Positions 32,458-33,870 of a DNA stretch of 33,870 nt are shown piece by piece. The stretch's first letter is position 1. Every line of letters begins with the position of its first letter. Location: contig CALMJY010000057.1 in the NCBI GenBank assembly GCA_937864815.1, positions 1 through 33,870 on the forward strand. The letters are read 5' to 3'. The notes below the pieces were generated by a model that searched no databases, had not been told where the DNA came from, and worked only from the letters and a program-made list of their open reading frames with translations. The DNA is from an uncultured Bacteroidota bacterium. Its GTDB lineage: Bacteria > Bacteroidota > Bacteroidia > Bacteroidales > VadinHA17. The translations under genes were made by a program, and so were the position numbers.

Positions 32458-33387
32458 ATGGGTATAAGCATCTGGTTCTGGATCGGGTTTCATATTTTCA
32501 TTTTTATAATGCTGGCACTTGACCTGGGTGTATTTCATAAGAAATCACATAAAGTGCCTGTTAAAGAGGCTCTTACATGGAGTCTGGTCTGGATCTCCCT
32601 TGCCATGGCTTTTAACTTGCTGATCTATTTTAAGTTTGGCAAAATCAAAGCACTTGAATTTCTTACAGGATATGTAATTGAATACTCACTAAGTGTTGAT
32701 AATATTTTTGTTTTTATTCTGATATTCTCATATTTTGCCGTAAAGGATGAGTATCAGCACAGGGTATTGTTCTGGGGTATTCTGGGCGCTTTAATAATGA
32801 GAGCAATATTCATCTTTGCAGGAGTTGCCCTGATAAACAGGTTCCACTGGATAGTGATAATTTTTGGAGGTTTCCTTGTTTACACCGGTATTCATATGTT
32901 GTTTTCGAAAGATACAGAAGTAGACCCTGAGAAGAATGCGATTGTGAAATTTTTCAGGAAGTTTTTGCCGGTATCAGAAAATTATCATGGAGACAGGCTC
33001 TTTATCAGGCAGAACCACAAGCTTTATGCTACACCTTTATTTCTCGTTCTCCTGGTTATTGAATCATCCGATCTTATATTTGCAGTTGACAGTATACCTG
33101 CCATTCTGGCAATCAGTCAGGACAGGCTGATTGTTTACACTTCGAATATTTTCGCTATTCTGGGACTCCGGTCACTATATTTTGCAGTATCCGGAATTAT
33201 GGGATTCTTCAGATTCCTGAAGATCGGGTTGGCATTTGTCCTGACCTTTGTTGGAACAAAAATGCTACTGGCGTTTTTTGGAATTGAGATACATATTGTT
33301 GCCTCATTGCTTGTGATTATTTCAATACTTACGATATCCATTCTGGCTTCAGTGTTGATAAGAGAAAACAAGCCTGAAGAAAAATAG
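32458..33387 (+). CDS. TerC/Alx family inner-membrane metal transporter
   Basis: 309 residues with about eight to nine transmembrane helices. TerC hallmarks: LALDLGVFHKKSHKV, the acidic helix IEYSLSVDNIFVF, and in the second half LLVIESSDLIFAVDSIPA, where the aspartates are thought to bind metal. The family includes Mn2+ exporters (Alx, MeeF/YceF) and tellurite-resistance TerC. No ter operon surrounds it, so a housekeeping manganese-export role is more likely; this is inference. ATG with AAAGG just upstream. Confidence 0.94.
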   Translation: MGISIWFWIGFHIFIFIMLALDLGVFHKKSHKVPVKEALTWSLVWISLAMAFNLLIYFKFGKIKALEFLTGYVIEYSLSVDNIFVFILIFSYFAVKDEYQHRVLFWGILGALIMRAIFIFAGVALINRFHWIVIIFGGFLVYTGIHMLFSKDTEVDPEKNAIVKFFRKFLPVSENYHGDRLFIRQNHKLYATPLFLVLLVIESSDLIFAVDSIPAILAISQDRLIVYTSNIFAILGLRSLYFAVSGIMGFFRFLKIGLAFVLTFVGTKMLLAFFGIEIHIVASLLVIISILTISILASVLIRENKPEEK

Positions 33388-33475
33388 CAGTTTGAGGTTT
33401 TTAAAATATTGTATTGGGAGTGTACTTTATTATTTCCGCATTTAGCTTTTATAAATACGATGTACTTAAACGAGA

Positions 33476-33501
33476 AACCCCGCGTATGCGGGGTTCTGTT
33501 T
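33476..33501. terminator. Hairpin terminator downstream of TerC gene and of the tRNA-like fragment
   Basis: AACCCCGC (33476-33483) pairs perfectly with GCGGGGTT (33488-33495) around GTAT. T-rich tracts lie on both sides, so it can stop transcription from TerC (plus) and from the tRNA-like unit (minus). The same hairpin design recurs at 33814-33831. Confidence 0.8.
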
Positions 33502-33503
33502 TG

Positions 33504-33568
33504 TGGGGGTTGGCGGGATCGAACCGCCGACCCTCCCGACTTATGAATCGGGATGCTCAGAACCAGCT
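33504..33568 (-). pseudogene. tRNA-like fragment lacking its 5' acceptor strand (tRNA pseudogene)
   Basis: Read on the minus strand, the 3' part is a textbook tRNA end: T-arm GGCGG-TTCGATC-CCGCC (33528-33512, fully paired), acceptor strand AACCCCC and discriminator A at 33504. Before it are a 5-nt variable loop GGGTC and an arm TCCCG/CGGGA whose loop is 10 nt (ATTCATAAGT) rather than 7, and a D-loop remnant AGCTGGTTCTGAGCA. The matching 5' acceptor strand GGGGGTT and a proper D-stem 5' side are missing. The loop contains CAT, but I would not assign an anticodon. It overlaps the last codons of the GIY-YIG gene. Confidence 0.7.
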
Positions 33569-33804
33569 TTAATGAGTTCATCAATTCGTTGCCTGTTCTT
33601 CCATCGTTTGATTTGTTTTTCCCTTGACATAGCCTCTTTTTTAGTGACGAATCTTTCCGAATAAACAAGTTTCCAAGGTCTTCCGGAATTTGAAAATCCT
33701 TTTGATTTTCTATTATGTTTAGCAAGTCTGTCATTTATATCAGAAGTGAATCCGATATAATACTTATCAAGTTTTGATGAATAAATAATATACAAGAAGT
33801 ACAT
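33541..33804 (-). CDS. Small GIY-YIG nuclease-family protein
   Basis: 87 residues, one GIY-YIG domain of the UPF0213/YhbQ-like type common in Bacteroidota. Motif: LYIIY (4-8) then YYIGFT (15-20), R26 of the NDRLAKHN helix, and the glutamate region KKEAMSREKQIKRWKN (55-70), so it keeps candidate catalytic residues Y5, Y16, R26 and E57/E62. Such a domain cuts DNA or RNA; the target here is unknown. The last nine residues (KAGSEHPDS) are encoded by tRNA-like D-loop and anticodon-arm sequence. The ATG lies about 6-9 nt after the T run of the upstream terminator with no SD, so it depends on readthrough of a tRNA transcript or an unseen promoter. Confidence 0.85.
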   Translation of the reverse strand: MYFLYIIYSSKLDKYYIGFTSDINDRLAKHNRKSKGFSNSGRPWKLVYSERFVTKKEAMSREKQIKRWKNRQRIDELIKAGSEHPDS

Positions 33805-33807
33805 ATG

Positions 33808-33831
33808 AGAAAAACCCCGCGACAGCGGGGT
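33808..33831 (-). terminator. Rho-independent terminator following the right-hand tRNA 3' end
   Basis: On the minus strand, ACCCCGC (33831-33825 complement) pairs with GCGGGGT around a 4-nt loop, then TTTTT follows. It begins 10 nt after the tRNA 3' end at 33841 and finishes next to the GIY-YIG start codon. It is the second copy of the 33476-33501 hairpin. Confidence 0.85.
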
Positions 33832-33840
33832 CTGAATTAG

Positions 33841-33870
33841 TGGGGGTTGACGGGATCGAACCGCCGACCC
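33841..33870 (-). tRNA. tRNA 3' end (partial; 5' part beyond window)
   Basis: On the minus strand the 30 nt that are visible form a variable loop GGGTC, a T-arm GGCGG-TTCGATC-CCGTC (one G-U pair), acceptor strand AACCCCC and discriminator A. They match the 33504-33533 copy at 29 of 30 positions. Whether this belongs to a complete, working tRNA or to another fragment cannot be seen, because the anticodon lies off the right edge. Confidence 0.55.

Follow-up and report, generated by a model that had tools for sequence, protein, structure and literature searches.

Candidate minimal GIY-YIG homing elements at tRNA genes of Bacteroidota

A small GIY-YIG nuclease gene recurs beside tRNA genes across the Bacteroidota, commonly in the company of a complete tRNA and of broken copies of tRNA sequence. 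With a probability of about 0.7, this arrangement is a minimal homing-type mobile element that enters tRNA genes and brings a substitute tRNA with it. The recurrent insert is probably selfish, breaking tRNA genes while leaving one working copy and often building tandem arrays. The case described first lies in the window, the whole stretch of DNA that was analysed, which is the entire contig C57 (33,870 nt) of a draft genome of 4.66 Mb in 348 contigs.

The minus-strand order at the right edge of the window is a tRNA 3′ end, a terminator-like hairpin, a GIY-YIG open reading frame, a partial tRNA copy, and a second terminator-like hairpin. The upstream tRNA is represented by its T-arm and acceptor 3′ strand (33841..33870), as delimited by sequence and the contig end; the edge at 33870 falls within the tRNA, whose 5′ part lies beyond the contig, and ARAGORN makes no tRNA call within the window. 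A terminator-like GC hairpin with a T-tract (33808..33832; sequence and fold) separates this tRNA end from the nuclease gene (33541..33804), which encodes a single domain of 87 aa. The downstream partial copy (33504..33568), defined by sequence, repeat structure, and comparison to relatives, has an intact T-arm and acceptor 3′ strand and is followed by the second hairpin (33473..33497; sequence and fold). The initial annotation proposed that a unit of tRNA 3′ end and terminator occurs twice, about 337 nt apart, with a single small GIY-YIG gene between the copies, and both claims were borne out. On the minus strand, GGGTCGGCGGTTCGATCCCGTCAACCCCCA (33870-33841) and GGGTCGGCGGTTCGATCCCGCCAACCCCCA (33533-33504) are identical at 29 of 30 bases with a spacing of 337 nt, and a GC hairpin ending in a T-rich tail comes after each. 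The repeat unit is thus real, but its downstream copy is longer than first noted, beginning in the D-loop at about 33568. A repeat search of the window returns one family (two 83-nt copies, 77% identity, spacing 337), and in folding both tRNA-end plus terminator stretches beat 200 of 200 shuffles (z -4.6 and -4.0). The anticodon-arm slot of the downstream copy is occupied by a 20-nt palindromic hairpin, TCCCGATTCATAAGTCGGGA (33534..33553, unstranded; pattern match and fold), of the form TCCCGA...TCGGGA. Downstream copies in relatives share this anatomy, with equivalent hairpins in the anticodon-arm slot. Because the nuclease reading frame runs into the downstream tRNA copy, within which its stop sits, the protein tail GSEHPDS is tRNA-derived.

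The upstream tRNA of the window is probably tRNA-Val(TAC), since Val-TAC is absent among the 30 of 35 tRNA matches of this genome that were fetched and typed, and since a homologue in the same-genus genome G112 lies directly behind a tRNA-Val(TAC). That homologue is broken by stops, and the T-arm of its tRNA is near-identical to that of the window. A TerC-like gene (window 32458-33387; L062/L162 in G112) adjoins the tRNA-Val locus in both same-genus genomes. It lies on opposite sides of the tRNA in the two, so that their synteny is not clean, which suggests a rearrangement at the array.

The window protein matches PF01541 with an E value of 1.2e-18 (67.5 bits versus a curated cut-off of 22.6) and, weakly, T5orf172. 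An alignment of the window protein and 23 homologues has six invariant residues (Y5, Y16, G18, R26, H30, and E62), and conservation of the catalytic Arg and Glu (R26, E62) in all 24 sequences places the family in the GIY-YIG superfamily. Family proteins are bare domains of about 80-100 aa. Textbook GIY-YIG homing enzymes have an additional DNA-binding domain; none is recognisable in this nuclease, which counts against the homing reading. The closest solved structures, PDB 1zg2 and 1ywl (UPF0213 / URI-type), are structures of hypothetical proteins and likewise comprise a single GIY-YIG domain of equal size; we know of no tRNA context for proteins of that type. A group I intron was rejected, as the 22 Rfam matches in 33350-33870 (up to E 10) include no intron family. 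An integrase-type element was also rejected: the window unit has the GIY-YIG reading frame only, and the units of three arrays measure about 355-378 nt.

The genome of the window has eight GIY-YIG matches, of which two are seen beside tRNA and two others lie at contig ends. The second tRNA-associated case is a GIY-YIG gene about 24 nt past a complete tRNA-Val(GAC), where there is no downstream copy. Within the order, 36 of 198 genomes have a close homologue (E <= 1e-15), with 48 matches in total. In a scripted survey of these matches, a tRNA or its remnant adjoins 43 of the 48 genes, in 33 of the 36 genomes, compared to a T-arm motif in 11 of 262 random 320-nt stretches; homologues thus mostly lie near tRNAs, in keeping with the initial annotation. 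An ARAGORN tRNA call is adjacent in 31 cases (some of these calls being pseudo-copies), a T-arm motif within 160 nt of the gene is alone present in 12, and neither is present in five. Of the genes in this last class, L063, L064, and two inner genes of L083 show tRNA-derived sequence by eye, and L075 is a truncated stretch. A scan of titled genomes gave at least 31 loci, with labels including Flavobacteriaceae, Cyclobacteriaceae, Saprospiraceae, and Bacteroidales; named carriers among the loci listed are Marivirga arenosa, Taibaiella lutea, Marinirhabdus, and Psychroflexus. The loci listed also include one metagenome bin each labelled Bifidobacterium, Chlorobiota, and Paceibacterota (L149, which has no tRNA). 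A survey of 66 loci (19 near-duplicates of 85 being left out) found a complete tRNA less than 800 nt upstream in 46, and 11 of the remaining 20 have less than 500 nt of upstream sequence. These upstream tRNAs are of many isotypes (Val-TAC, Val-GAC, Arg-TCT, Asn-GTT, Ala-GGC, Asp-GTC, Met, Thr-CGT, and Pro-GGG). The layout is present in the one-contig genomes G195, G226, and G590, which rules out an assembly artefact. One member (L053) had no match in 50,697 phage records (tblastn) or in plasmid records, and three members had no PHROG match. A scan of viral contigs gave one relative, L211 on an IMG/VR contig, with T-arm sequence on both sides; this contig may be a misassigned bacterial fragment.

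The recurrent layout can be written as [pseudo-tRNA]n - complete tRNA - terminator - (GIY-YIG - pseudo-tRNA - terminator)m. Its complete tRNAs, arrays, variety of isotypes, and upstream pseudo-copies were unseen in the initial annotation. Upstream pseudo-copies are intact at tRNA positions 1-28 and decayed in the remainder, downstream pseudo-copies are often intact at positions 44-76, and the two kinds are not both present at every locus. Some members (e.g., L003, L079) have no downstream copy, which is a further point against homing. Three nuclease units occur in tandem in G195 (378-nt period), in G024 (period about 355), and in G086 (period 371), the last behind five upstream pseudo-copies. 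Three loci have a variant order, in which a pseudo-tRNA and the GIY-YIG gene precede the complete tRNA (L216, and by eye L228 and L237); in the pseudo-tRNAs of L216 and L237 the palindrome sits in the D-loop (partly by eye). A strict pattern caught 19 downstream copies; in 17 of them the anticodon-arm slot holds a perfect stem of at least 6 bp, compared to 5 bp in 42 of 51 native anticodon arms. By eye, a palindrome also breaks the T-loop in L116, L117, and L205. The pseudo-copies of L083 number five upstream and three downstream, with palindromes that differ between the two sides.

Among downstream copies with a match score of at least 34, the closest isotype is that of the adjacent tRNA in 29 of 31, with two ties, on a panel that is drawn from the genome of the window and biased toward the adjacent tRNA. 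Direct repeats in the 300 nt on each side exceed the 99th percentile of 446 control windows in 79 of 101 gene instances and fall short in 22; array members in this count are not independent, and the highest control score (230) equals real cases. The test covered genes of at least 150 nt with at least 100 nt on each side, at loci from which near-duplicates had been removed.

Occupied and empty versions of one locus are found within a single genus. A search of 30 genomes of the G226 genus gave a tRNA-Val locus in 28, with folC adjoining in 25, and the nuclease is present at three of the 28 loci (G226, G590, and G605), as sought within the fetched loci, two of which (L196 and L206) end early at contig ends. 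The order in G226 is folC, pseudo-copies, tRNA, nuclease gene, pseudo-copy, and epimerase. The initial annotation called for an empty site in relatives, and L207 is a clean one: folC and a single tRNA-Val are followed about 120 nt on by an epimerase homologue (63% identity to that of G226), and the nuclease is absent. Other loci of the genus without the nuclease include L189, in which a single tRNA is followed about 0.7 kb further by the epimerase (80% identity), and L201 and L202, in which two intact tRNAs are followed about 110 nt further by the epimerase. Occupied and empty alleles of one locus in close relatives are what is required of a homing element. The comparison of G195 to its relative G093 was unusable as an empty site, the contigs of G093 breaking inside the tRNA.

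These loci also bear on tandem duplication alone, whereby a resident GIY-YIG gene stood by chance beside a tRNA, unequal recombination copied both, and the spare tRNAs decayed. Because L182, L188, L197, and L198 hold two or three intact tandem tRNA-Val genes at the same locus with no nuclease, tRNA duplication by itself also occurs in the genus, and the near-identical units of the arrays are likewise in keeping with such a process. Yet the arrangement repeats at Val-TAC, Val-GAC, Asn, Asp, Met, Arg, Ala, Pro, Thr, and other tRNAs, the insert is present or absent inside one genus, and the carriers of one genus do not all fall together in the protein tree. Duplication as the whole account is therefore decidedly unlikely, and recurrence together with the empty sites led us to reject a chance duplication.

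Comparison to intact tRNA genes of relatives suggests which tRNA is native. In four of four comparisons (L117, L083, L205, and L094), the outermost pseudo-copy is preceded by promoter-like sequence as found at the intact tRNA gene of the relative, with alignment scores for outermost versus inner copies of 27 v 8, 19 v 6, 58 v 7, and 37 v 5. For L083 (compared to L151) and L094 (compared to L154), the match is limited to the tRNA and promoter and does not imply the same chromosomal place. The inner copies and the complete tRNA have a leader different from the promoter region of the relative. The position of this native-like promoter suggests that the working tRNA is part of the insert and that the original tRNA gene is now the dead one. 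The terminator side is less clear, and the comparison is mixed: the outer terminator is closer than the inner to empty-site terminators in 7 of 11 comparisons for L205, 11 of 11 for L204, and 4 of 11 for L117 (22 of 33 in total). The idea that an element inserted at a tRNA gene rebuilds its 3′ end is supported by the empty sites and the recurrence, but what is carried in often seems to be a whole substitute tRNA.

In the mechanism that we infer, from cleavage site and repair route to the selfishness of the element and the reason for its palindrome, the GIY-YIG nuclease would cut a given tRNA gene wherever a copy of it is uninterrupted. Repair would draw on an element-bearing chromosome, with the 5′ and 3′ parts of the tRNA serving as homology arms. 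Repair would place a leader, a complete substitute tRNA, a terminator, and the nuclease gene within the old tRNA gene. Two pseudo-copies would be left of the old gene: an upstream one, still at the native promoter, and a downstream one that precedes the old terminator and often has a palindrome replacing its anticodon arm. Such an insertion would be tolerated because the cell keeps one working tRNA. Tandem arrays would arise via renewed insertion into the substitute tRNA or by unequal crossing-over. Each renewed insertion would add one upstream and one downstream pseudo-copy, which fits the presence of the leader of the element at inner copies, but not the unequal counts in L083 (5/3) or L078 (six upstream, one downstream). 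Loci with the complete tRNA downstream (L216, L228, and L237) would need a mirror-image version of the mechanism. The complete tRNA in occupied loci should stay cleavable, which is also a point against the homing reading.

The protein is mostly under purifying selection, tandem copies included, although several dS values are saturated. The dN/dS values of tandem copies are 0.025/0.187 for L081, 0.010/0.142 for L083, and 0.027/0.285 for L133, with looser values for L116 (0.183/0.345). One tandem pair (L135) has two amino-acid changes and zero silent ones, which counts against homing. In a protein tree of 93 rows and 89 columns, with one gene of at least 165 nt per locus and many forks open, isotype labels change 18 times, compared to 35.8 in shuffles, and none of 200 shuffles is as low. 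Of the 93 rows, 20 are unlabelled; some labels, including all those for non-tRNA repeats, were assigned by eye, and ARAGORN 'tRNA-Leu(taa)' calls on the L081 pseudo-copies were counted as Val. Isotype labels are clustered on the tree, yet they switch several times. Two carriers of one genus (L204 and L205) cluster with L099, a carrier from another order (100/93), and apart from L117, which shares their genus. The shape of the tree fits lineages with a tRNA preference that were acquired independently.

A different view is that the nuclease acts on RNA and forms, together with the tRNA-like RNAs, a defence or toxin-antitoxin unit. The order of RNA unit, terminator, and small nuclease gene does recall type III toxin-antitoxin loci. 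GIY-YIG enzymes, however, are known as DNA nucleases; the pseudo-copies are decayed on their inner sides; and the gene is missing from the tRNA-Val locus in most of the G226 genus. PADLOC found no known defence family, its matches being weak and partial (PDC-S14 and UzuA models, best E 3.5e-4). RNA-based control or immunity is accordingly very improbable.

A bare nuclease beside hairpins also invites comparison to REP elements and their associated transposases. RAYTs are Y1/HUH transposases, and the window protein, which has no PF01797 (Y1 transposase) match, does not belong to them. The likeness lies in a small nuclease gene tied to hairpin repeats (PMC2817692); the difference is that the present protein is GIY-YIG and its repeat is mostly a tRNA. 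A REP/RAYT-like reading would have the nuclease recognise DNA hairpins and spread hairpin repeats, the tRNA being merely the repeat of most members. It draws on seven loci (L220, L221, L223, L226, L233, L234, and L238) in which the gene is flanked by direct copies of non-tRNA interspersed repeats, and these rows, whose labels were assigned by eye, all belong to a single 13-row clade (100/97). The flanking repeat of L221 is multicopy: its own genome has three copies, including the pair that flanks the gene, and another genome of the genus has 14. The structures matched by the protein also include SLX1, a structure-specific nuclease. The other six rows of the clade (L002, L004, L005, L224, L225, and L239), on the other hand, have no flanking repeat.

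Palindromes in the genomes at large bear on the same question. The TCCCGA palindrome has a median count of 10.5 in the 36 carrier genomes versus 4.0 in the 162 others (P ~9e-8), a comparison that ignores kinship and in which copies within the element inflate the count. At the profile threshold, the family is found in 14 of the 15 palindrome-richest genomes without a strong match, versus 2 of 15 drawn from 23 palindrome-free genomes. However, the Y1 transposase PF01797 also tracks palindromes, although more weakly (15/15 versus 8/15), and a preference of palindromes for the loops of larger hairpins was unsupported (1 of 13 sites exceeded the 95th percentile of the controls). The nuclease is not credited with spreading palindromes, because Y1 shows a similar trend and the loop-insertion idea failed; overall, the REP/RAYT-like reading is unlikely. 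In genome G000, the palindrome TCCCGATAGCTATCGGGA is an interspersed repeat (e.g., L103, L105, L107, L109, and L110), and TCCCGAN{0,10}TCGGGA occurs 33 times versus four for the reversed control, sometimes within other repeats. One of these copies (L110, C87:5476-5493) lies in the D-loop of a tRNA-Pro-like 5′ fragment just upstream of an intact tRNA-Pro(CGG) (C87:5527); no GIY-YIG match is among those listed for contig C87.

The nearest known systems are a phage enzyme and a group of fungal mitochondrial insertions. In PMC13096335, SegB of T-even phages is described as a free-standing GIY-YIG homing endonuclease that cuts inside tRNA genes, with the motif RAWTSGAAC, and drives tandem amplification of tRNA-Tyr and segB, aided by a short stretch of homology that the tRNA 5′ end shares with the 3′ end of segB. 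On our reading, RAWTSGAAC is the reverse complement of GTTCSAWTY, the tRNA T-loop consensus. Compared to what is described there, the present element is alike in having a GIY-YIG gene beside tRNA genes (here for 43 of 48 matches), tandem amplification, and many isotypes. In contrast to SegB of phage genomes, it resides in Bacteroidota chromosomes, and its bare-domain gene splits the tRNA gene and leaves pseudo-copies around the working one. PMC3630166 describes mORFs, which insert in fungal mitochondrial protein genes and bring their own C-terminal part to replace the native one, which persists downstream; the atp9 mORF is GIY-YIG. The mORFs, as presented there, place an endonuclease in an essential gene, with a replacement 3′ part and the native 3′ part duplicated downstream, and the anatomy of the present elements fits such a plan. 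The mORFs occupy mitochondrial protein genes, whereas the elements here occupy bacterial tRNA genes, often with a whole substitute, palindromes, and arrays. By analogy, the present system would join features of SegB and the mORFs in bacterial chromosomes. Searches of the open-licence literature gave no description of such an element in bacterial chromosomes.

A broader proposal is offered tentatively, as a possibility with the odds somewhat against it. These would be autonomous bacterial elements that rank with the smallest known. The repeat mobilised by a bare GIY-YIG nuclease would be structured, hairpin-forming DNA (mostly tRNA genes, and interspersed repeats in one clade), and essential tRNA loci would be converted to nested arrays in which dead copies surround a single working tRNA brought in by the element. 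If so, the lineages concerned would have a working tRNA gene that belongs to a selfish element. If the homing reading is right, essential tRNA genes in many Bacteroidota would have been broken and replaced by very small selfish elements. Assembly breaks, tRNA pseudogenes, and odd GIY-YIG C-termini (GSEHPD tails) in Bacteroidota would be accounted for. The element would offer a tractable bacterial case of a homing nuclease whose cost is offset by its supply of the very gene that it destroys, as well as a cellular counterpart of SegB-driven tRNA amplification. It would also provide candidate compact nucleases from lineages keeping to particular tRNA isotypes.

The pseudo-tRNA motif can also be sought without reference to the protein, and 4 of 395 genomes of the phylum match. 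In three of these, the nuclease has a complete tRNA on one side and the motif on the other. The fourth (L118, in G277) has a tRNA, a pseudo-tRNA, and a tRNA in succession at a tRNA-Val locus without the nuclease gene, and is a possible scar of a lost element. At another locus (L158, in G138), an apparent folC is followed by a tRNA-Val and then by a decayed downstream copy, and no gene separates the tRNA from the copy; this locus is probably such a scar.
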